NCBI GenBank assembly: GCA_002862085.1
Contig: PKCK01000047.1
Span: 62,001-126,000 of the forward strand
Length of the DNA: 64,000 nt
Reading direction: 5' to 3'
DNA from: Planctomycetota bacterium
GTDB lineage: Bacteria; Planctomycetota; UBA1135; GCA-002686595
Shown: positions 17,825 through 55,960 of the stretch, one piece after another
How the letters are laid out: every line of letters begins with the position of its first letter
How positions within the stretch are numbered: position 1 is the first letter of the stretch
Program-made: the position numbers and the translations under genes
The notes under the pieces: generated by a model
The model's input: the letters and a program-made list of their open reading frames with translations, nothing else
Told to the model about the DNA's origin: nothing
The model's database searches: none

Positions 17825-19753
17825 TCAGCGGAAGTCGACCCTCAGCGCCGAGGAGAGGTTCGACGTGAGGAAGGGGTTCTGGTCGCGGTACCAGTACTGG
17901 AAGTAATAGCTCTGTCCCGCCTGGACGGCGCCGATCATGGGGATGTTGGAGAGGTCCGGCGCGTAGGAGGCGATGCCGGTCCCACGATCGGAGACGACTC
18001 CGTTGAAGCGGACGAGCGGTGTCCCGAGGCAGAGGATCCCCTGGCTCCCGCTGCCGAGCGGGACGATCCCCGGTGTGTAGGCGACCACGAAGAGGCCGAA
18101 CTGGTTGCGCGGGACGTCCGTGACGTTGAGGACGAGAGCGCGGTCAGCGGCCACTGAGCTGCCGATGGCCTCCAGGAAGGCGCCCACTCCGGTCGAGTTG
18201 GGCGCGCCGAGGCAGGTCGTCGCTCCGACGAAGCCCTCGCAGCCGGGGCCGCAGTGGTAGGGGTCGTACGGGAACGCGCCCATGTCCGCCCTGGTGCCGT
18301 CAGGATCGTTACCTGCGGTGGGCGAGGCGATGTCGATGCACGGTGAGTCAGGGAGCAGGTGCATGTCGACCGGAGCCATGTGGAAACGCGGCGTGGCGTC
18401 GATGTTCCCCATCCCGTTCGCGCCGCCCTCGACGTTCGAGTAGGAGATATCGACAGCTGCAGCCAGACGGGGGATCGGGCCACCCCGTACGATCGAGTTG
18501 CGCAGGGCGCCGGCGCCCTCGACGCTCGTCGCGCCGCCGGTGGCGTCGTTGTCGACGAAGGTGCAGCGGTCGATGAAGGGAGAGCCGAGGATCGCTCCAC
18601 CGCCGCTGGAGAACTGGTCGATCGCCGTGTTGAGCGCGAAGACGCATCCGTTGACCGTGGTCTCCGCCGCCGCCGACACGGCACCTCCGCCGCAGCTCAG
18701 CTGGCCGCCCAGGGCGGCGTTGTGCTCGAAGATCGAGTCTCGGACGGCGCCGATGCCCTCGATCGAGACCGCTCCACCGAACTGCCCCGTGTTGCTCCGG
18801 AAGAGACAGCGCAGAAGAGTGATCGACTGGTTCGCCGCGCCGGGCATGCCTTGGAAGGAGAGGGCGCCGCCGGGATGAGGGTCGTGGCCCGTGTCGTTGG
18901 AGACGAAGCTCGAGTCCCGCACGACGAGCTGGCAGGACTCGGCGAAGATCGCGCCGCCGTCGTCGCCGCTCACGTTGTGCGCGAAGGAGCAATCCTGGAA
19001 GACGTGGGCGCCGCCCTGGATCCAGAGCGCTCCGCCCGATGCGAGGGCGGCGCGGTTCGCGGTGAACTGACAGTCCGTGGCGATCACGACGCTGTCGATC
19101 GCACGGATGGCGCCGCCTTCGCCGCCCGTCGCGCAGCCGTCGAAGACGCACTCCTGCAGCCGGAGGAAGGCCTTGCGCGCCCAGATACCGCCGCCGGAGT
19201 CCGATCTGTTCGCGTCGCCGCAATCCCGGAAGGTGATCCGCTGCATCATCGGGGCGCCACCGTCGAGGAACAACCCGCTGCCGAACTCGGCGAACTCGCC
19301 GCCGGTGATCACGAGGTCGCGCAGGGTGGGGGAGCTCCCGCCAGCGCAGAAGATGCCGCCGCCCACGAAGGGGAGGCCGGGGCCGGGGAGCGGTGAGGGC
19401 TGGCCCTGGACGCCCTCGAGGGTGAAGCCCTCGAGCACGGCGCTGGCGCCTTCTCCGTTCTTGAACGTGACCACGCTGCCGGGCGGGAAGCCCATCGGGG
19501 GCGACTGGAGGGTCGTCACAGCCGAGCCGCCGGTGGAGCGGACCTCGACGTTCTTACCCAGGAAATCGATCCGCTCGCCCGGGTAGTTGCCGGGCGCCAC
19601 GAGGATCGTGTCGCCGCTCTGGGTGCTGGCCGCGGCCACGGCGTAGGAGACGCTCGTGTACGGACTCGACGGGGTCCCGTTGCCAGGGCCAGCGGCGGCC
19701 GCGTCGACGAACCATGTGGATTGCAGGCTGACGGCGAGTATCGGAAGGAGCAT
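17825..19753 (-). CDS. Secreted right-handed parallel beta-helix protein with C-terminal WYRD module
   Basis: Signal peptide, then polymorphic-membrane-protein-type repeats (GGAIRAIDSVVIATDCQFTANRAALASGGAL). Last ~130 aa end in YYFQYWYRDQNPFLTSNLSSALRVDFR, shared with three other proteins here. Confidence 0.85.
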   Translation of the reverse strand: MLLPILAVSLQSTWFVDAAAAGPGNGTPSSPYTSVSYAVAAASTQSGDTILVAPGNYPGERIDFLGKNVEVRSTGGSAVTTLQSPPMGFPPGSVVTFKNGEGASAVLEGFTLEGVQGQPSPLPGPGLPFVGGGIFCAGGSSPTLRDLVITGGEFAEFGSGLFLDGGAPMMQRITFRDCGDANRSDSGGGIWARKAFLRLQECVFDGCATGGEGGAIRAIDSVVIATDCQFTANRAALASGGALWIQGGAHVFQDCSFAHNVSGDDGGAIFAESCQLVVRDSSFVSNDTGHDPHPGGALSFQGMPGAANQSITLLRCLFRSNTGQFGGAVSIEGIGAVRDSIFEHNAALGGQLSCGGGAVSAAAETTVNGCVFALNTAIDQFSSGGGAILGSPFIDRCTFVDNDATGGATSVEGAGALRNSIVRGGPIPRLAAAVDISYSNVEGGANGMGNIDATPRFHMAPVDMHLLPDSPCIDIASPTAGNDPDGTRADMGAFPYDPYHCGPGCEGFVGATTCLGAPNSTGVGAFLEAIGSSVAADRALVLNVTDVPRNQFGLFVVAYTPGIVPLGSGSQGILCLGTPLVRFNGVVSDRGTGIASYAPDLSNIPMIGAVQAGQSYYFQYWYRDQNPFLTSNLSSALRVDFR

Positions 19754-19990: not shown

Positions 19991-22792
19991 ATGAACGAGC
20001 CCAGCCGAGCCGCGAGCCCGCGGCGCACCACCTACGTACCCGCCGTCGGTCCCCGGCTCGCCCGGCTGCTCGCGGTGGTGTTCGGCCTCTTCGCGCTCCT
20101 CTCGGTCAACGCGGTGTACCTCATCGTCGTGCGTCTCGCGGGCCGCTGGACCGGACAGAGCTACGAGAACCTCTTCTACCTCTACATGTTCCTCGGGCAC
20201 CTCGTGCTCGGGCTCCTGATCGTCCTCCCGGTGATCCTCTTCGGGGTGATCCACATGGGGAAGGCACGGGGTCGCCGGAACAAGCGGGCCGTGCGCATGG
20301 GCTACGCGCTCTTCACGGCCGCGATCGGGCTGCTCGTCTCGGGCATCGTCCTGACGCGCGTGGAAGGCGTCATCGTCGTCAAGGACCCCACGGCCCGCGG
20401 AGTCGCTTACTGGCTCCACGTCCTCCTGCCGCTGGTCTGCGGCTGGCTCTTCGTCCTCCACCGCCTCGCCGGGAAGAAGATCCGGTGGTCGGTCGGCCTG
20501 CGCTGGGCGGGCGTGTCCGGCGCCTTCGCTGCCGTCGCGCTCACGCTCCAGCTCCAGGATCCGCGCCAGTGGAACGAGGTCGGGAACCCCGACGGCGTCG
20601 AGTACTTCTACCCCTCGCTCGCGCGCACGGTCACCGGCGACTTCATCCCCGAGCACATCCTCCAGAACGACGAGTACTGCAAGCAGTGCCACGAGGACGC
20701 CCACGAGAGCTGGATGGCGAGCGCCCACCATCTCTCGTCCTTCAACAACGAGGTCTACCTGGCGTCGGTGCGCGATACGCGCGCCTTCGCCATGGAGCGC
20801 GACGGGAACGTCAACGCCTCGCGCTTCTGCGCGGGGTGCCACGACGTCGTCCCGTTCTTCAGCGGGAAGTTCAACGACCCCGACTACGACATGCGGAACG
20901 ATCCCACGGCCCACGCCGGGATCACCTGCACGGTCTGCCACGCGATCAGCGCGATCAACAGCCCGCGGGGCAACTCCGACTACACGATCGACACCCCGAT
21001 CCACTACCCCTTCGCGTTCTCGGAGAACCCGACCCTGCGCTGGATCAACGAGCAGCTCGTGAAGGCGAAGCCGGAGTTCCACAAGAAGACCTTCCTCAAG
21101 CCCCTCCACCAGAGCACCGAGTTCTGCGGGACGTGCCACAAGGTGCACCTGCCGGAGGAGCTCAACGACTACAAGTGGCTGCGCGGTCAGGACCACCAGA
21201 CGTCCTTCCAGCTCTCAGGGGTCTCGGGCCACGGCGTCACGAGCTTCTACTACCCGCCGGAAGCCGAGGAGAACTGCAACGGCTGCCACATGCCGCTGAT
21301 CGAATCGGACGACTTCGGCGCGCGCGTGCGTGACGGCAGCGGCGTGACGAAGACCTTCGATCATCTGTTCCCCTCGGCGAACACGGCGGTGCCGCTGCTG
21401 GCGGCGGAGGACGGCCTGGTCACCCAGGAGCAGGCGGACCGCGCCGTGGAGGCGCACCGCCGCTTCAACGAGGGGGTCATGCGCGTCGACATCTTCGGCC
21501 TGCGCGAGGGCGGGGAGATCTCGGGCGAGCTGCACGCGCCCTTGCGGCCCGAGGTCCCGGCCCTCACCCCGGGCGAGCGCTATCTGCTCGAGGTCGTCGT
21601 GCGCACGGTGAGGATGGGGCACCACTTCACCCAGGGCACCTCCGACTCGAACCAGGTCTGGATGGAGCTCACCGCCGAGGACGGACGGGGCGAGACCCTC
21701 GGTCGGAGCGGGTGGATGGATCCGGAGACCGGTCAGGTCGATCCCTGGAGTCACTTCCTCAACTCCTTCGTCCTCGACCGGGAGGGCAACCGGATCGCCC
21801 GCCGGAACGCCCAGGACATCTTCACCGCGCTCTACAACCACCAGATCCCGCCCGGAGCCGGTGAGGCGATCCACTACGCCCTCCAGGTGCCAGAGGACGC
21901 CGTCGGGCCGGTGACCGTCACGGCGCGTCTGCGCTACCGCAAGTTCGACACGGAGATCATGCGGTACGTGCTCGAGGACCCCGACTGGGCCAACGACCTC
22001 CCCGTGATCGAGCTGGCCCAGGACAGCGTGTCGTTCCCGGTGGGGAGCGCGGGGCCAGTCACCGTCGAGGCCCCCGACTTCCCGCTCTGGCAGCGCTGGA
22101 ACGACTACGGCATCGGGCTCCTCCGCAAGCCCGGCGGCGCGCAGCTGCGACAGGCCGAGGAGGCCTTCGAGGAGGTCGAAGCCCTCGGCCGTCCGGACGG
22201 CCCGGTGAACCTGGCGCGCGTCTACCTCGCCGAGGGCCGCGTCGACCGCGACGCGCCGGAGGCCCTGCGGCGGGCCCGCGACTTCGACCCGCCCGCGCGC
22301 GAGTGGTCGGTGCTCTGGTTCACGGGGCTCGTGAACAAGCAGAACGGCAACCTCGACGAGGCCATCGCGAACCTTCAGCAGATCGTGGACGGGGGCTTCG
22401 CCCAGGCGGCCGGCCGCGGTTTCGACTTCTCCAAGGACTGGCGCCTGCGGATCGAGCTCGCGGAGGCGCTCTACGAGCGGGCCCGCCAGGAGCGCGGTGA
22501 CGCGCGCCGGTCCTCCCGCGAGGAGCTGCTTCGCCGCGCGGTGGGCCACCTCGAAGCGGCCTTGGAGCTCGACCCGGAGGTCGCGCGCGCCCACTACATC
22601 ATGGAGCAGGTGCTGATCGACCTCGGGGACGAGGAGGGCGCCGCTGTGCATGCGGGGCTCCACCGGAGTTACAAGATGGACGACAACGCCCGGGACGTCG
22701 CCGTGGCGGCCGCCCGTACCAGGTACCCTGCGGCCGACGTGGCCGCGGAGGCGGTCGTCATCTACGACCTTCATCGCGGGAACGAGCATTGA
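19991..22792 (+). CDS. Membrane multiheme cytochrome c with C-terminal TPR-like region
   Basis: Four N-terminal TM helices; five CxxCH motifs (CKQCH, CAGCH, CTVCH, CGTCH, CNGCH); C-terminal TPR-like helices (NLDEAIANLQQIVDGG, AVGHLEAALELDPEVARAHYIM). Confidence 0.9.
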   Translation: MNEPSRAASPRRTTYVPAVGPRLARLLAVVFGLFALLSVNAVYLIVVRLAGRWTGQSYENLFYLYMFLGHLVLGLLIVLPVILFGVIHMGKARGRRNKRAVRMGYALFTAAIGLLVSGIVLTRVEGVIVVKDPTARGVAYWLHVLLPLVCGWLFVLHRLAGKKIRWSVGLRWAGVSGAFAAVALTLQLQDPRQWNEVGNPDGVEYFYPSLARTVTGDFIPEHILQNDEYCKQCHEDAHESWMASAHHLSSFNNEVYLASVRDTRAFAMERDGNVNASRFCAGCHDVVPFFSGKFNDPDYDMRNDPTAHAGITCTVCHAISAINSPRGNSDYTIDTPIHYPFAFSENPTLRWINEQLVKAKPEFHKKTFLKPLHQSTEFCGTCHKVHLPEELNDYKWLRGQDHQTSFQLSGVSGHGVTSFYYPPEAEENCNGCHMPLIESDDFGARVRDGSGVTKTFDHLFPSANTAVPLLAAEDGLVTQEQADRAVEAHRRFNEGVMRVDIFGLREGGEISGELHAPLRPEVPALTPGERYLLEVVVRTVRMGHHFTQGTSDSNQVWMELTAEDGRGETLGRSGWMDPETGQVDPWSHFLNSFVLDREGNRIARRNAQDIFTALYNHQIPPGAGEAIHYALQVPEDAVGPVTVTARLRYRKFDTEIMRYVLEDPDWANDLPVIELAQDSVSFPVGSAGPVTVEAPDFPLWQRWNDYGIGLLRKPGGAQLRQAEEAFEEVEALGRPDGPVNLARVYLAEGRVDRDAPEALRRARDFDPPAREWSVLWFTGLVNKQNGNLDEAIANLQQIVDGGFAQAAGRGFDFSKDWRLRIELAEALYERARQERGDARRSSREELLRRAVGHLEAALELDPEVARAHYIMEQVLIDLGDEEGAAVHAGLHRSYKMDDNARDVAVAAARTRYPAADVAAEAVVIYDLHRGNEH

Positions 22793-27377: not shown

Positions 27378-29342
27378 TCAGGGGCAGAACGTGACCGAGA
27401 TCGCGTTGCTGAAGTTGAAGCCCTGGTTGACGTTGTCGCGATACCAGGTCTGCCAGTTCCAGGTCTCACCGGCGTTGAAGGTGCTGCCGGGCGCGAGGTT
27501 GTTGTAGTCGACCGGGACGTTGAACGAACCGAAGATGTCCGACTGGAAGATCGACAGACGGTAGAGCGTCGGCGAGGTGGCCACGCAGAGGATGCCGTTG
27601 CCGAGCGGGGAGAACGTCTGACCCTGGCCGTAGATCAGGATGCCGAACTGGTTCGCCGGATAGCTGCCGCCGAAGGCGAGGAAGTCGTTGGCGGAGAGGC
27701 TCGTGGAGCCCAGGTTCGTGAGGGTCGCCGTGGAGCCCGTCGAGTTCGGGAAGTTGAAGCAGTAGATCGAGGTCGCGCCGCAGCCCTGGTCGGTGACCGC
27801 GATGTCGTCGACGTACCAGTTCTCGCTGTTGCCGTCGACCTCGGCCACGATGCGGATCTGAGCCTCGTCGTGGTAGGCGTTGTTCGGGACGTCTGCCGAG
27901 TAGACGGTGAAGTCGCTCTCGGAGGAGCCGTTGGAGGTCACCCGAATGATCTCGGCCCAGTCGCCAGCCTGGTTGTAGATGTCGACGCGCAGCGAGTTGC
28001 CCGGGAGCACGCCACGGTTCTGGACCGAGACGAAGACCTCGTAGCCGGACTGGCCGCCGAGCAGGAGCTTGTTCGAGATGATGACGTCGTCGCTCAGCTG
28101 CCCGTTGTTGAGGGCGTTCAGCTGGAGCGAGCGGCTCGGCGAGGGCTCGTTGAGCGCGCTGGTCGAGGACACGACGCCTTGGTTGCTGATCCAGTTGTCG
28201 GTGTTGATCGACGCGGTGTCGATCTCGTCGCGGAACGGAACCGCGAGGGGCGGAGCGAGGTCGAGCAGGCAGGGGCGCCCGATCGCGTAGTTGCGGATGC
28301 CGTTCGCGACCGAGGTGCCGAACCGGCTGAGGTCGCCGTTACAGCCGCCGAGGCCGGAGCACATGATCCGACAGTCGCCGTTGCCGTCGCAGTGGTTCGA
28401 GCTGAAGTTGTGCCCGATCTCGTGGGCGGTGAGGCCGGTCCGCGAGCTGATGTTCGCGGTGAATCGGGACTCCGAGAGTCCGTAGCCGGTGCTCTGGCAA
28501 ACCGCGCCGAGGTAGGCCACGCCGATGGTTCCGCCGTTGATGTTCACCCCGGTGAAGAGGTGAGCGAGGTCGCGGCGCACGCTGGCGAAGTTGCTGTTCC
28601 AGTGAGAGCGGAACTGATCCAGACGGGTGCCCGCATCGTTGGAGGTGTAGGGGTCGCTGGCGGTCGTTCGGACCACCACGCCGGTGATCTGGAAGGTCAC
28701 GTCGACGTCGCGGACGTAGATGGTGTCCGTGCGATTGATGACGCGCTCCATGTCGTCGAGGGTCGCGGCGACGCTGTTGCCGTTGCGACCGAAGAACTCG
28801 AAGTCCGCATCGAGCGCCAGCTCGCAGAGCTGGAGGCCGGTACCGCGGGAGGCGTTGGAGCTGGTGAAGGCCTCTTCCGGCGCCGGCCCTGCGATGTTCG
28901 GCACGCCGCAAATGCCCGCGGGAACGACCAGGTCAGCCTTGTTGGCCACTGAGTAGAAGCCTTCGGGGTATCCCCGCGCGGGCTGGATCTGCCATTCCTC
29001 GTCCGCCTGCTCATCGGCCACGATCGCGGTCAGCCCCTCGTGGTTGATCGACGCGATGACCTGCGCCGAGGGCCAGCCAGGGATCGTTCCGCGGTAGGTG
29101 TTGGGCTCGGGGGCGGGGACCTCGAGCAGAGACCCGTCGGGGCGGGTGACCCAGAGCTTGAAATCGCTCGCGCGCAGCGAATGGCTGTCGAGCACCATCT
29201 CAGCCTTGCGGCCTTCGATGTCCACGGCGATGACGACCGTGCCCGCCGGATCCACGGGGACGTCGAGCTTCTGGATGCTGCCCACGGGATCGACCGCTTG
29301 GGGGGCCGCCGCGAGGGCAAGGGTGGAGAGGAGCGTGTACAT
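27378..29342 (-). CDS. Secreted reprolysin-like zinc metalloprotease with C-terminal WYRD module
   Basis: Signal peptide; zinc site LTAHEIGHNFSSNHCD (HExxHxxxxxH); C-terminal FNAGETWNWQTWYRDNVNQGFNFSNAISVTF. Confidence 0.88.
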   Translation of the reverse strand: MYTLLSTLALAAAPQAVDPVGSIQKLDVPVDPAGTVVIAVDIEGRKAEMVLDSHSLRASDFKLWVTRPDGSLLEVPAPEPNTYRGTIPGWPSAQVIASINHEGLTAIVADEQADEEWQIQPARGYPEGFYSVANKADLVVPAGICGVPNIAGPAPEEAFTSSNASRGTGLQLCELALDADFEFFGRNGNSVAATLDDMERVINRTDTIYVRDVDVTFQITGVVVRTTASDPYTSNDAGTRLDQFRSHWNSNFASVRRDLAHLFTGVNINGGTIGVAYLGAVCQSTGYGLSESRFTANISSRTGLTAHEIGHNFSSNHCDGNGDCRIMCSGLGGCNGDLSRFGTSVANGIRNYAIGRPCLLDLAPPLAVPFRDEIDTASINTDNWISNQGVVSSTSALNEPSPSRSLQLNALNNGQLSDDVIISNKLLLGGQSGYEVFVSVQNRGVLPGNSLRVDIYNQAGDWAEIIRVTSNGSSESDFTVYSADVPNNAYHDEAQIRIVAEVDGNSENWYVDDIAVTDQGCGATSIYCFNFPNSTGSTATLTNLGSTSLSANDFLAFGGSYPANQFGILIYGQGQTFSPLGNGILCVATSPTLYRLSIFQSDIFGSFNVPVDYNNLAPGSTFNAGETWNWQTWYRDNVNQGFNFSNAISVTFCP

Positions 29343-42239: not shown

Positions 42240-44813
42240 CTACTGGAACAGGATCGAGACCGCGTCCGAGAGGTTCGAGGTCGGCTGACCGAGGAACGTG
42301 TCCCGGTACCAGGCCTGGAAGTTCCAGGTCTGGCCGGCGACGACGCTGACGAAGCTCCCGCCCTCGGGGATCCGGTTCAGGTCGAGAGCGAGGGAGAACT
42401 CGCCCTGGCTACCCGAGTCGACGACGTTGGCGTTGAAGCGCCCGATCGGGCCCGCGATGCAGAGGGTGCCGAGGCCGCCGCCCACGTTCGGGTCGTTGTC
42501 CTGGGCCTGCGACGTCACGAAGAGGCCGAAGACGTTCAGGGGGAGGCCCTCGACGTAGAGGGTGACGTCGTTGTCGGCCGCGGTGCTGGAGCCTTCGGCG
42601 CGGATCGCCGCGGACAGGCCGGCCGAGTTGGTGACCGCGGGGCCGCAGTAGTTCGAGCCCACGCCGCCGCAGTCGATCGACGAGACCGTGAAGCCGTCGA
42701 GGCCGGCTTCGACGATGCTCTGCGGGTCGCCGTCGTTCGCGGTGAAGCGCATGCGCATCGAGTCGCTCAGGGTGATGCCCGCAGCCGTGAAGTCCGCGGC
42801 CACCAGGGTGGCGTTGCGCCACGCGAGGCCGCCGTCGGTGTCGAAGCGCGTGACCTCGGTCCAGGCGCCGCCGTTCGAGCTCGCCTCGACCAGGAGACGG
42901 TCGGTGCCGTCAGCGTTGGTCAGGTAGAGGTAGTAGTCGAAGGAGACCGCCGCGCCGGGAGAGCTCATGTCGAAGGCCGGTGAGGTCAGACGCACCGCGC
43001 CTCCGTCGACGTCGGTGTTGCCCGTCTGGTTCTGGGTCAGGAAGGCCGAGCCGCTGCCGTCACCGTCGCTGGCGGGGTCGTAGGCCCAGCCCCCGTCGTT
43101 CACCGGGACGCCGCGCTCCCACTGGCCGCTGGAGGCGCCGAGGTTCTCGGCGGTCCAGCCCTGGTCGGACTCGAAGTCGTCGGAGAAGGCGATCGTTTCG
43201 ATGCCGCCGACCGCCTCGTAGAGGGTCGTCGGAGCGGCCTGCGGCGCCGTGAAGGTGCCGAGGCCGGTCACGTCGAACTGCATCGAGTACTCGATGATCG
43301 CGCCGCACGGGATGGCCGGGAGATCGCCCAGCCACATCGAGCCCTGCTGGGTCATGACGACCGTGGTCGGGCTGGGATCACCGGTGACCTGGTAGGTCAG
43401 GCTGGCGCTGGTCACGGTGCCGCTCACCGCGTCGAGCATCACGGGCGTGGTCGAGACGTCGGAGGCGACCTCCGGCGCGGTGACGATGACCTCGAAGACG
43501 GCGGGGTTGCACGCGGCGGACGCGCTCGTCATGAGCGAGGCGGCCTCCGGGTGGAACCAGGTCGTGATGTTGGCCGTGCCGCCGCTGCACAGGTGGCAGT
43601 AGCTCATGATCGTGCCCGAGTTCGTGCAGACCTGGCTCGACTGGCAGTTCCCGAAGTAGCCGCTGGGCGCGCACTCGTCGAGCGGCGGGCAGAAGTCGTG
43701 GGTGTGCGGTGACGCGAAGTTGTGGCCCAGCTCGTGGGCGACGACGATGAAGTCCCAGTTCGACGGTTGCTGCACGACCGGGAAGTTGACGGCGCCGGCG
43801 ATGTTGCCGCTGACTCCGAAGTTGAAGCTGTCGTTGCAGAGCACGTCGAGGTAAGCCACCCCGCCGCCGAGGCCCGCGCCGCTCATCATGTGGCCGAGGG
43901 TGGCGTTCATCGGGACGTTGCCCTGCCACGCGGCGACGAACTCGTTGAGCATGTCGATGGAGTTGCCGCCGTTGTCCGGCGAGCTCCACGGATCGTTGGA
44001 GTTCGTGTAGATCTGCAGGTAGGGGAAGGTGAGGACCGTGGAGGTCTGCACCTCGTAGCGGTCGCTGACGAAGCTCAGCAGAGTCGTGAGGTACGTCGCC
44101 GCGGCCGTCTGGTTGTTCCAGATCTGGTAGAACTGGAAATCCGTCTCCATGGCGACCGTGCACTCGCGAAGCGCGATCGACTCGACCGCGCGGAGCTGGC
44201 TCGGGCCGCCCTGGAACTGGCTCGGGACCGGCGGAACGGCCGGGGGCTGAGCCAGGCATTCGGCCTGGTGGGAGATGCCCGCGGCGTTGAGCGCGTCCTC
44301 GTACTGCAGGACGGAAGGGGCGGCGAACCAGCTGCCGTCGGCGGCCACGGTGGGCATGACGTGCAGGAGGCCCTGACGCGTGCGCAGCCAGCCGCGGACG
44401 CCGTAGTTCGAGAAGCCGAGCATCACGTCGCTGAACGGGTCGCCCGCGATCTGGCCCTTCCAGACCGACACCGCGGTTCCGTCGAGGATGTCCGGGGCGG
44501 GCACGCCGTTGACCTGGAAGCCGAAACGGCGGCGCTCGATGTCGATGCGCTCGAGCTCGAGGTCGAAGGTGCGGCCGTCGGGGGCCCGGAGACCGGTCAG
44601 CAGGACCTCGTCGAGGCCCTGGAGCCGCGCGATCGTCCTGAGCTCGGGCTCGAGCTGGGGAGCGCCGAGGCGCAGTTCGGCGCCGGGGATGGGAAGAAGA
44701 GGGAAGGGGACCGACGCGGTCTGGGCGGCGGCGCTGCTGGAGAGGAGCGCGAGGGCGCCGCAGAGGGCGCCTGCCAGCCGGGGGCGGCGGAGGGAGTTGA
44801 GGTTCTCGATCAT
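42240..44813 (-). CDS. Secreted reprolysin-like zinc metalloprotease with C-terminal WYRD module
   Basis: Signal peptide LAGALCGALALLSSSAAAQ; zinc site VVAHELGHNFASPHTHDFCP; C-terminal VAGQTWNFQAWYRDTFLGQPTSNLSDAVSILF. Confidence 0.9.
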   Translation of the reverse strand: MIENLNSLRRPRLAGALCGALALLSSSAAAQTASVPFPLLPIPGAELRLGAPQLEPELRTIARLQGLDEVLLTGLRAPDGRTFDLELERIDIERRRFGFQVNGVPAPDILDGTAVSVWKGQIAGDPFSDVMLGFSNYGVRGWLRTRQGLLHVMPTVAADGSWFAAPSVLQYEDALNAAGISHQAECLAQPPAVPPVPSQFQGGPSQLRAVESIALRECTVAMETDFQFYQIWNNQTAAATYLTTLLSFVSDRYEVQTSTVLTFPYLQIYTNSNDPWSSPDNGGNSIDMLNEFVAAWQGNVPMNATLGHMMSGAGLGGGVAYLDVLCNDSFNFGVSGNIAGAVNFPVVQQPSNWDFIVVAHELGHNFASPHTHDFCPPLDECAPSGYFGNCQSSQVCTNSGTIMSYCHLCSGGTANITTWFHPEAASLMTSASAACNPAVFEVIVTAPEVASDVSTTPVMLDAVSGTVTSASLTYQVTGDPSPTTVVMTQQGSMWLGDLPAIPCGAIIEYSMQFDVTGLGTFTAPQAAPTTLYEAVGGIETIAFSDDFESDQGWTAENLGASSGQWERGVPVNDGGWAYDPASDGDGSGSAFLTQNQTGNTDVDGGAVRLTSPAFDMSSPGAAVSFDYYLYLTNADGTDRLLVEASSNGGAWTEVTRFDTDGGLAWRNATLVAADFTAAGITLSDSMRMRFTANDGDPQSIVEAGLDGFTVSSIDCGGVGSNYCGPAVTNSAGLSAAIRAEGSSTAADNDVTLYVEGLPLNVFGLFVTSQAQDNDPNVGGGLGTLCIAGPIGRFNANVVDSGSQGEFSLALDLNRIPEGGSFVSVVAGQTWNFQAWYRDTFLGQPTSNLSDAVSILFQ

Positions 44814-51662: not shown

Positions 51663-54600
51663 TCAATAGAACGTGACGCGGACGCCGTCCGTGAAGTTGG
51701 ACGTCGCGGTCGGGTTCGCGTCGCGGTACCAGATCTGCCAGAAGCGCGTCTCGCCAGCGGCGACGCTCGCCATGCCGACCGAGGTCGGGGTCATGGTCAG
51801 GTCGAGCGGGATCTGGAAGCTGCCCGTCGCACCCGAGTTCATGATGTTGGCGTTGTAGCGGCCGAGGGAGCCGCCGAGGCAGAGGTTGCCCTGGCTGCCG
51901 CCGGGGTTGGCGACGAAGCCGGGCGCGAGGCTGGTCGCGAGGAGACCGAACGTGTTCAGGGGCATGTCGTAGGCCTCGATCCTCAGGTCGTTGTCGGCGG
52001 CGGTGTCCGTGCCGAGAGCGCGGATCCGGGCCGGGGCGCCCGTCGAGGACGAATTCGCCACGCAGTAGTTCGTGCCGCACTCGTCGCTGACGATGAAGGG
52101 GCCGAAGGTCGCGAAGCTCGACGTCCAGTTACCGGCTTCGTCCACGGTCTTCACCTTCAGGTAGTGCGTGCCCGGAGCGAGCGTGACGGTGTCGGAGGTT
52201 CCCGTCGTGTCGAGGAAGTCCGAAGGCGGAGTGGTCGGGTTCGAGCTCCAGAAGAGCCCGTAGCCAGCCACGCCGGAGTGCAGGTCCGAGGCCGCGCTCC
52301 AATCCACCGTGATGGTGCGCTCGCAGCGCGCCGTCCCGACCGGGTGGGTCGAGCTGGCGAAGGTCGCGAGGCCCGGATCGGTCACGTCGATGAAGTAGGG
52401 TCCCGTGGACTCGTGGTCCGCGTCCCAGTTCCCCGAGCGGTCGACCGAACGAATGTTGAAGTACCTCGGGCTGGTCGAGGACGTCCAGGCGGCGCTCGTG
52501 TAGGTCGAGACCGCCCCGATGTCGAGAATCGGACCAGGGCTGGAGGCGCTGCTCGTCTCGTAGATCCCGTAGCCGTCGATTCCACTCAGGGCGTCGGAGG
52601 CCGGTGACCACGTGTAGGTGATCGTCGGGTCGTTCGACCACTCGTTGACCGTGTGGGAGGTCGAGGTCAGGCCCGAGACGGCGCCCGGCTCGGTTCCGTC
52701 GACGACGATGTCCACGGTCGCGTTCTTGTCGATCATGTTGTCGGAGCGCGCCTCGACCGAAACCGACTTGGTGCCCTCGGTGCTGTACTGGAGGGTCCAG
52801 GTCGCCGCGCGGTCACGGTTGTCCGTGATGTCGCCGAGGGTGAGGTCCGCGCCTCCCGACTCGTTGTCGGTCAGATCGGTCACGATTCCATCAGCCAGAG
52901 TCGATGTCGCGCCTACGAGGGTCGCAGCGCTACCGCTGCGGTCGAGGACGACCGCGGACGCGACGTAGTCGTCCACGTCGACGTTGGCCGTGACGTCGAC
53001 ATCATCACCCGGCTGCACGAAGCTGTCCGAGGCCGTGAGGGTGAGCGTCGCGTCCGGGGTCGTGTCATCGACGACGAAGTACACGGTGACGCCGATCTTC
53101 GTGCTCGAAGTGACGGAGTCGGGGTAGACCTTCCAGCGCCAGGGACCAGACGCCGGGTTCTCGATGATCCGCAGCTCGTTGTTGTCGATGCTGCTCTGCT
53201 GAGCGAAGTAGTCACCGGTGTCGCCTGCCGGGTCGATCGGATCGCGATCGAGGTAGAAGTCCCAGTCGTTGATGAGCGCCTGGGACGCGCCACTCGAGGC
53301 CGAAGTCTCCAGTGCGCTCATCACCGCGACGATGCGTGTGCAGCCCACAGGGACGGTGAAGTCCGCGAAGGTCCAATCGGAGCCGGAGTTCTGCCAGGTC
53401 CACGTGGTCGACGTGTTCCCGCCGAAGTTGTACCGAGCCTTGTAGGCGTTGATCCGTCCCGCACCGTAATTGTCGAGGTGGGTGCTCGTCTCGGTGGTGA
53501 TGATCGTGTTGTCGTCCGTCATGGCCGTTGCCATCAGGAGCGACTGCATCGCCTCTGGCTTGTCGAGGAAGTAAGGACGGGCGTCCATCAGCATCGCCGC
53601 GGCGCTCGCCACGTGGGGCGAGGCCATCGAGGTGCCGCTGTAGCCGGCGTAGCCGCTGTTGTTGTTCGCGAGGCAGCTTCGCACCCGGCGGCCCGGGGCG
53701 GTGACGTTGGGCTTCCAGCGGCCGTCGCCGGTGGGACCTCGCGAGGAACTCGTCCAGAGGTTGCCGGGGTCGCCGACGGTGGAGTCGATGTAGTCGACGA
53801 CGTTGCCGACGACGAAGGAGTTCTTGGCCGCCGACTGGATGCTGATGGTGCTTGCGTTCGGGCCACTGTTGCCCGCGGCCCAGACCCAGAGCTGGTCTTC
53901 GTCGAACGTAGCGTCATCTGCCACGCGAGCCTCGAACTCGGTCCCCACCGGCGCGGAGCCGCTGAAGCTTCCCCATGAGTTGTTGACGATGTGGGGTTTC
54001 CGGGTCGTGTTCCCGTTGGCGTCGGTCACGGAGTTGCTGAACCTGTCGACGACGACATCGCTCCCAACGTCGCAGGGGGTCGGGAATCGGCGGTAGTTGA
54101 AGATGCGGCCGGTGTTCCAAGAGCCGAGGCCAGGCGCGTTGCCCATCTGATCGACCTCCGCGACGCCGCGGCCGAACAGAGTGCCTGCCACGTGCGTGCC
54201 GTGGCCGTTGCCGCCGTTGCTGATGTCGTCCCACGCCGAGGATTCACTGGTGCAATTCCAGCCCCAGCCGAAGATGCCGAGATCGTCGTGGGCGTTCTCG
54301 AGGCCCGAGTCGACGAGACCCATCACGACGGTCTGGGTCGTTCCACCATCACTGGTGAGGCGAAGGCGATCGCTCATGATCATCGCGCGCGTTTCGTCGT
54401 GCGGCGCCGCGGTGAGCTCGGCGTCGAAGACGGGCTCGATGAACTGAACGAAGTCCAGGGCCGTGAGCGTCTCGAGGTGGCTCTCATCGGCCTCGATGAG
54501 GAAGGCCTCCTGGCGCGCGGTGTAGCTGATCACGTTGACGCCCTCTCGCTCGAGCGCACGCTGCATCCAGCCGTTCGAACGAGTCAAGATGCTCCGGGCG

Positions 54601-55376
54601 TCTTCCATCTGCACCTCGCTGCCGTCTGGATCCACCGTCGAAGAGCTGCCGAAGGGGATCTCCTCGGCGGCCGACATGTCGTCGCCCTCGAAGACCGAGA
54701 CGTACAGTCGCGTCCGGCCGCCGTTCCGATCCATGAACTCCTGGGTCGCAGGGTGCAGCTTCTGGGACGCCCGCGCGACGCCGACCCAGCGAACGAACTC
54801 GAGCACCGAGACGTCGCCGATCGCCTTGGCGGGGATGGCGACCTTGAGCGTGTAGTGGGGGTGGAAGCCGAGGATGCGGCAGCCCATGGCGGTGAGGGCG
54901 TCGCGACGCTCCTGGGTGATGCGCTTGGAGAACATCACGAAGCCGTAGGTGACGTCGTCCGGGCGGCCGTCGAGGGTCCCGTTGCTGGCGGCGAGGGCGA
55001 GCTGGGGGTCGAGGATCTCGTTCGCGGGGGGATAGTGCTTGCCGCCGATGAAGCCGAGGAAGTACGGGTCGCCGTTCGCCTCCTCGAGGACGACGTCCTT
55101 GCCGTCGACCATGTCGACGACGGCGTCGACGGGCAGCGGGATGGAGTCGTCGACCTCGACCGGGTAGCCGGTCTCGATGACGAAGGTCCTGGGATCGGAG
55201 ACGTCCCTCGTCGTGGCCTCCCTCTTGGCGGGATTCGCGGAGGGATCGATGGAGGTGACGGGAGTCCGAGCGCGCTCGGTTTCGGTGGTCACCGGCTCCT
55301 GTTGCGCGGAGGTGTACCCGGTGAGTAGCGCGGTCGTCAGGACCAATCCGAAGGGGGTGGCGAGTTCGTGTCGCAT
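51663..55376 (-). CDS. Secreted subtilisin-family (S8) serine protease with C-terminal WYRD module
   Basis: Catalytic blocks VMGLVDSGLENAHDDLG (D), GNGHGTHVAGTLFG (H), YSGTSMASPHVASAAAML (S). C-terminal VAAGETRFWQIWYRDANPTATSNFTDGVRVTFY. Confidence 0.93.
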   Translation of the reverse strand: MRHELATPFGLVLTTALLTGYTSAQQEPVTTETERARTPVTSIDPSANPAKREATTRDVSDPRTFVIETGYPVEVDDSIPLPVDAVVDMVDGKDVVLEEANGDPYFLGFIGGKHYPPANEILDPQLALAASNGTLDGRPDDVTYGFVMFSKRITQERRDALTAMGCRILGFHPHYTLKVAIPAKAIGDVSVLEFVRWVGVARASQKLHPATQEFMDRNGGRTRLYVSVFEGDDMSAAEEIPFGSSSTVDPDGSEVQMEDARSILTRSNGWMQRALEREGVNVISYTARQEAFLIEADESHLETLTALDFVQFIEPVFDAELTAAPHDETRAMIMSDRLRLTSDGGTTQTVVMGLVDSGLENAHDDLGIFGWGWNCTSESSAWDDISNGGNGHGTHVAGTLFGRGVAEVDQMGNAPGLGSWNTGRIFNYRRFPTPCDVGSDVVVDRFSNSVTDANGNTTRKPHIVNNSWGSFSGSAPVGTEFEARVADDATFDEDQLWVWAAGNSGPNASTISIQSAAKNSFVVGNVVDYIDSTVGDPGNLWTSSSRGPTGDGRWKPNVTAPGRRVRSCLANNNSGYAGYSGTSMASPHVASAAAMLMDARPYFLDKPEAMQSLLMATAMTDDNTIITTETSTHLDNYGAGRINAYKARYNFGGNTSTTWTWQNSGSDWTFADFTVPVGCTRIVAVMSALETSASSGASQALINDWDFYLDRDPIDPAGDTGDYFAQQSSIDNNELRIIENPASGPWRWKVYPDSVTSSTKIGVTVYFVVDDTTPDATLTLTASDSFVQPGDDVDVTANVDVDDYVASAVVLDRSGSAATLVGATSTLADGIVTDLTDNESGGADLTLGDITDNRDRAATWTLQYSTEGTKSVSVEARSDNMIDKNATVDIVVDGTEPGAVSGLTSTSHTVNEWSNDPTITYTWSPASDALSGIDGYGIYETSSASSPGPILDIGAVSTYTSAAWTSSTSPRYFNIRSVDRSGNWDADHESTGPYFIDVTDPGLATFASSTHPVGTARCERTITVDWSAASDLHSGVAGYGLFWSSNPTTPPSDFLDTTGTSDTVTLAPGTHYLKVKTVDEAGNWTSSFATFGPFIVSDECGTNYCVANSSSTGAPARIRALGTDTAADNDLRIEAYDMPLNTFGLLATSLAPGFVANPGGSQGNLCLGGSLGRYNANIMNSGATGSFQIPLDLTMTPTSVGMASVAAGETRFWQIWYRDANPTATSNFTDGVRVTFY

Positions 55377-55781: not shown

Positions 55782-55960
55782 CGGCGCCGTCCGTGACCCC
55801 GACGTCGCGGCCGGGTGGGCGTCGCGATACCAGGTCTGCGGTTCGCGAGCCTCGCCTGCGACGACGCTCGTCGAGCCGATCGCGGTCGGTGCCACGGTGA
55901 GATCACGCGGAGCGGGAAGCCCGATCCGGCCGGGCTCCGTCCCGCTCCGGCGGATCGGCG
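55782..55960 (-). pseudogene. Decayed fragment of the C-terminal WYRD module
   Basis: Minus-strand frame reads DLTVAPTAIGSTSVVAGEAREPQTWYRDAHPAATSGSRTA, matching DLTMTPTSVGMASVAAGETRFWQIWYRDANPTATSNFTDG of the adjacent subtilase. No attached protease or other domain. Confidence 0.8.

Follow-up and report, generated by a model that had tools for sequence, protein, structure and literature searches.

Four genes in the window end in the same module

The window, i.e., the whole 64-kb stretch of DNA that was analysed, carries four genes for secreted proteins that end in a common module of about 130 aa, all of them on the minus strand (Table 1). At 17825-18220 the plus strand reads as nonsense, and the module peptide of copy 1 is obtained from the minus strand. 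The ATG at 19753 is probably the start of the copy 1 gene, and its product consists of a signal peptide (MLLPILAVSLQSTWFVDAAAAG...), right-handed beta-helix/Chlamydia-PMP-type repeats and the module, in that order. The product of the copy 3 gene additionally gives a weak match to a MAM-like domain. An earlier note on this DNA had claimed that four secreted proteins share an end module of this size while their N-terminal parts are unrelated, and both claims were borne out: the four copies are homologous, and they follow beta-helix/PMP repeats, two M12B reprolysins and one S8 subtilase.

Copy 1 is matched by the module HMM with E=1.5e-60 and by a profile built solely from other genomes with an i-Evalue of 3.6e-32. 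Since this other-genome profile recovers all four window copies (i-Evalues 1e-24 to 1e-52) and gives zero module matches in reversed sequences, the similarity of the four copies is not a matter of chance. A fifth, decayed fragment, located immediately 5' of the gene for the S8 subtilase, is probably a pseudogene remnant. Adjoining copy 1, at 19991-22792 on the plus strand, the window encodes a membrane protein with several CxxCH-like motifs, resembling a multiheme cytochrome c.

Table 1. Positions of the module copies, the copy 1 gene and the loci with an internal module (window coordinates, except in the last line).
Feature	Position	Strand	Details
Module copy 1, 131 aa	17828..18220	minus	Cys3, Cys64; WYRD at residues 110-113
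Gene of copy 1	17825..19753	minus	Stop codon 17825-17827; 642 aa counted from the probable start ATG at 19753
Module copy 2	27381..27770	minus	On M12B reprolysin-like metalloprotease, gene 27378-29342
Module copy 3	42243..42656	minus	On M12B reprolysin-like metalloprotease, gene 42240-44813
Module copy 4	51666..52073	minus	On S8 subtilase, gene 51663-55376
Fifth module fragment, decayed, 3' half only (DLTVAPTAIGSTSVVAGEAREPQTWYRDAHPAATS)	55800..55910	minus	E=1.5e-4; i-Evalue 6e-7 with the other-genome profile
Signal peptide-module-heme loci	L246-L258, e.g. L249, G006:C1:3955579-3956307		Small secreted protein

The module is predicted to be a beta-sandwich and matches no named domain

With a 93-row alignment as input, AlphaFold2 produced an all-beta model of the module with a pLDDT of 90.8 and a pTM of 0.87, and the module is confidently predicted to be an Ig/FnIII-like beta-sandwich. 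When this model was used to search the PDB with Foldseek, nothing was retrieved at E <= 0.001, and the nearest folds were FnIII/Ig-like sandwiches at TM 0.4-0.5. The module is like such domains (e.g., those of the pectate lyase PelI, 3b4n, and monobodies) in general fold, but it has no sequence similarity to them, and its restriction to the C-terminus is atypical for them.

Searches of 73 modules against Pfam and NCBIfam returned no covering model, only isolated chance matches; comparison with the PDB by sequence gave chance or FnIII/Ig-like similarity alone, and PHROGs gave no match. A match to a known catalytic or binding domain, which the earlier note had named as evidence against its reading, was thus found neither in Pfam, NCBIfam and PDB sequences nor with Foldseek. 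None of the open-access papers covered by our searches describes the domain. The module is a predicted folded domain of about 130 aa without an earlier name, which in one group of planctomycete bacteria terminates exported proteins that are otherwise unrelated and number from dozens to hundreds.

In the numbering of copy 1, the near-invariant residues include Cys3, Asn8-Ser9, Gly11, Gly61, Cys64, Arg71, Trp110, Arg112, Asp113 and Asn121. Of 74 copies from the window's own genome, 71 have both cysteines, as do 102 of 104 related copies, most of the apparent exceptions being alignment shifts; in 15 of 18 distant members both are missing. This joint retention or loss of Cys3 and Cys64 is the pattern that a disulfide between them would produce. 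No conserved cleavage motif was found in the linker, beyond a weakly preserved start of the form I-G-[ST]-x-[YF]-C, and the module sequences end in ...VTF[QN].

Abundance of the module among related genomes

The genome that contains the window (4.39 Mb, 132 contigs) has 78 module matches and belongs, by its taxonomy, to the same genus as Saltatorellus ferox Poly30. Scanning of contigs from related genomes, with a profile made from a 6-row module alignment, gave up to at least about 100 scored matches per genome, with as many as 758 candidates at first look. Within the genus, a closed genome of 7.7 Mb has at least 150 matches among 392 candidates, and the match coordinates coincide with those of record CP036434.1, Planctomycetes bacterium Poly30, which we take to be Saltatorellus ferox. 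In all, the module (hereafter also type 1) was found in 17 genomes and hardly occurs outside its own family, where the few copies seen are divergent; some genomes of the family have merely 0-3 copies.

Nearly all modules are terminal, and their cargo is diverse

In the window's own genome, 72 of the 73 full-length copies stop 0-4 residues short of the stop codon. The same holds elsewhere: of 104 complete copies from other genomes, 103 have no more than 5 residues between module and stop and the remaining one has 7, and all 18 divergent modules from other Planctomycetota families are C-terminal, with tails of 1-7 residues. In the loci of other genomes, each ORF has at most a single module. By eye, signal peptides are seen in nearly all module proteins of the own genome, mostly ending in A-x-A-Q; a strict regex, which is a crude test and misses many, found them in 56 of 96 module ORFs as against 23 of 386 control ORFs.

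Across 71 module proteins of the own genome, the N-terminal parts matched 56 Pfam families. These include peptidases (S8, M12, M14 and M43) as well as BD-FAE esterase, GH16, amidase_3, endonuclease I, GSDH, FG-GAP, PPC, legume-type lectins and kelch. The expectations of the earlier note that the module would occur on signal-peptide proteins and across many N-terminal folds are consequently in agreement with these data, and its expectation that matches would always lie at C-termini holds with the exception of a single family.

In this family, represented by one protein of the own genome and present in 9 of the 9 genus genomes examined, a signal peptide is followed by the module and then by a domain of about 114 aa with a CxxCH c-type heme motif. 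The heme domain has no Pfam match, and the protein ends in IRDWILAGAPF. The presence of a domain behind the module in a conserved family means that a free C-terminus is not required in every case. It is unlikely that the module is a removed signal in these proteins, and its internal position there fits a folded domain that stays on the protein better than a terminal signal that is cleaved off.

The tendency of the module to be single and terminal also bears on the idea that it is a ligand-binding domain, similar to carbohydrate-binding modules (CBMs), which ties proteins to a polysaccharide, either one from the matrix that the cell itself makes or one that it feeds on. Known carbohydrate-binding modules commonly occur at either end of a protein, internally and in tandem. 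About 99% of the modules described here are single and terminal, unlike these, and among the 73 members searched the only Pfam CBM match was one at E=0.03. Nevertheless, the beta-sandwich fold, the invariant W110, R112, D113 and Asn121, the many extracellular hydrolases among the cargos and the one tolerated internal placement would all suit a binding function, which we regard as unlikely on balance.

Comparison with known C-terminal sorting systems

The RgpB CTD, a T9SS domain, has been solved as a beta-sandwich export signal, with the signal residing in its last 22 residues (PMC4804311). The module is like T9SS CTDs in being a C-terminal Ig-like beta-sandwich common to many hydrolases and adhesins that are exported by Sec and whose N-terminal parts are unrelated, and it departs from this trait only in the one internal family. 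However, it shows no sequence match to T9SS CTDs, is about 130 aa long as compared with the 75 positions of the PF18962 model, and differs in its conserved Cys pair, its planctomycete host and its internal family; an earlier survey had found T9SS in Bacteroidetes only (PMC4793230). The Por_Secre_tail profile (PF18962/TIGR04183) matched in 0 of 18 genomes, with a weak control in one Bacteroides, and the SprA profile TIGR04189 matched in 0 of 14, with the control genomes giving no match either. Por_Secre_tail was rejected as kin of the module on the former result and on the lack of Pfam or NCBIfam matches to the 73 modules. The best reading of the comparison is that the module is T9SS-like in role and broad fold and is not a T9SS member.

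A stricter version of this likeness would be a secretion signal in the manner of T9SS, where PorU carries out cleavage with surface attachment: an outer-membrane translocon would read the module, or just the last strand of it, and the signal would be removed in the course of export, perhaps as a surface glycan is attached. The near-absolute C-terminal position 0-4 residues from the stop, the single copy per protein, the diversity of cargo and the beta-sandwich shared with the RgpB CTD (PMC4804311) speak for such a signal. We nevertheless consider it improbable in light of the heme family, in which the module sits at the N-terminal end in every genus genome examined, the lack of Por_Secre_tail and SprA matches (the latter with controls that were equally silent) and the linker without a conserved cleavage motif.

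Like the module, PEP-CTERM/exosortase, GlyGly-CTERM/rhombosortase and LPXTG-type tails are C-terminal homology regions found on many exported proteins per genome. These tails, however, are short and tripartite (a motif, a TM helix and a basic end), whereas the module is a predicted folded domain of 130 aa. Membership in PEP-CTERM was rejected, as the module has neither a TM helix nor a basic tail and its own genome has no exosortase, and PEP-CTERM-type processing of module proteins is unlikely. Exosortase (PF09721), which was matched in 2 of 10 module-rich and 6 of 8 module-poor genomes and in none of G000, G002 and G007, was also rejected as a partner, as it does not track the module and is commoner where modules are few. 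The likeness to Por/T9SS or PEP-CTERM tails proposed in the earlier note can thus be kept for the role and broad fold of T9SS, albeit with no T9SS match, and not for PEP-CTERM.

A remotely homologous tail in module-poor relatives

In module-poor genomes of the own family, several S8 proteases end in a different tail, which we call type 2. Type 2 tails (loci L226-L245, alignment A7) occur on many secreted proteins across Planctomycetota, are C-terminal in 21 of 21 cases and, like the module, retrieved no named model or other database name. In profile-profile comparison (hhalign), type 2 aligned with the module over 116 columns with E=6e-10 and a probability of 96.6%, the first seed set having given E=5e-7. 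An iterated type 2 profile run on the fetched loci also drew in type 1; as this could be profile drift, the claim of homology is based on the profile-profile comparison, which was made separately. For the type 2 tail, AlphaFold modelling from six sequences reached a pLDDT of 43, too poor for use.

The two tails are alike in ending secreted proteins such as S8 proteases and are remote homologues. They differ in that type 2 lacks the Cys pair and WxRD of the module, carries IP-x-P...VG...YxQW...D...SNGL instead and is far wider in Planctomycetota, being found in 55 of 296 sampled genomes, including every sampled member of the own order. Judged by these profiles, the module is one branch of a nameless superfamily of C-terminal tails.

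The type 2/type 1 counts are 5/78 in the own genome, 42/0 in G022, 36/0 in G290 and 87/3 in G024, and, more broadly, genomes of the family with 0-3 modules carry 7-87 type 2 tails and module-rich genomes 4-8; these counts are biased by type 2 seeds taken in part from module-poor genomes like G022, G290 and G024, yet outgroup families also have 31-144. Together with the homology, the complementary counts suggest that some tail is kept while its version changes.

A possible docking or sorting domain for surface proteins

We propose that the module may well be a folded docking or sorting domain for export to, or retention at, the cell surface. Under this proposal, Sec would send module proteins into the envelope, where the module would fold independently and be stapled by its disulfide. 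The folded module would then be recognised by one shared, putative partner, for instance an outer-membrane exporter or a surface or matrix receptor, which would take proteases, esterases, glycosidases and FG-GAP/beta-helix adhesins outside the cell or hold them there. What module proteins have in common would be their location, and the module would stay on the mature protein.

This docking proposal draws support from the homology of the copies, their large number, their preference for the C-terminus and their limit of one per ORF, from the signal peptides and the variety of cargo, from the confidently predicted beta-sandwich, the coupling of the Cys pair and the homologous tail in module-poor relatives, and from the precedent of the T9SS CTD as a beta-sandwich export signal (PMC4804311). 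It is weakened by the fact that the surveys of SprA, Por_Secre_tail, exosortase and secretins yielded no partner or machinery and no co-occurring family was identified; secretins number 5-8 per genome, one genome having 4, and their frequency is the same in module-rich and module-poor genomes, so that they do not discriminate between them. In addition, one module protein (L042:1946-4708, plus strand) has a lipobox-like signal sequence (LLACSKED) and is possibly a lipoprotein; such a signal would already supply an anchor, which counts against docking or sorting. With regard to the sorting or anchoring tail suggested in the earlier note, the C-terminal bias, signal peptides and 56 Pfam families fit that suggestion, whereas the heme family shows that there is more to the module than a C-terminal signal that can be removed.

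In the sea and in soil, much polymer degradation is the work of planctomycetes, and the movement of their large enzymes across the envelope is poorly known. A broader and more tentative possibility is that Planctomycetota have an undescribed general system of surface export or retention, with a C-terminal beta-sandwich superfamily as its tag and a receptor or translocon without a name. Such a tag could perhaps exist in two or more lineage-specific versions, each genome having tens to hundreds of clients. If the module is indeed a tag, the external proteome would be predictable directly from sequence, many 'hypothetical' planctomycete proteins could be labelled as surface or secreted, and the module would serve as a handle (bait, reporter or phylogenetic profile) for finding the machinery.

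Duplication of module genes

The module could instead have no targeting role and just cap or stabilise the ends of proteins, having spread through shuffling of 3' gene ends. Terminal Ig/FnIII-like domains are often acquired by multi-domain proteins, no particular relative of the fold stands out with confidence, and tandem module paralogues and decayed fragments show that duplication occurs. Against this, specific residues are strongly conserved whatever the cargo, and a homologous tail replaces the module in relatives, both of which argue for a shared function and make a mere end cap very doubtful. Runs of two or three adjacent genes, each with a terminal module, lie at three places in the own genome (L076 on C42, L077 on C3 and L031 on C7) and point to local duplication.
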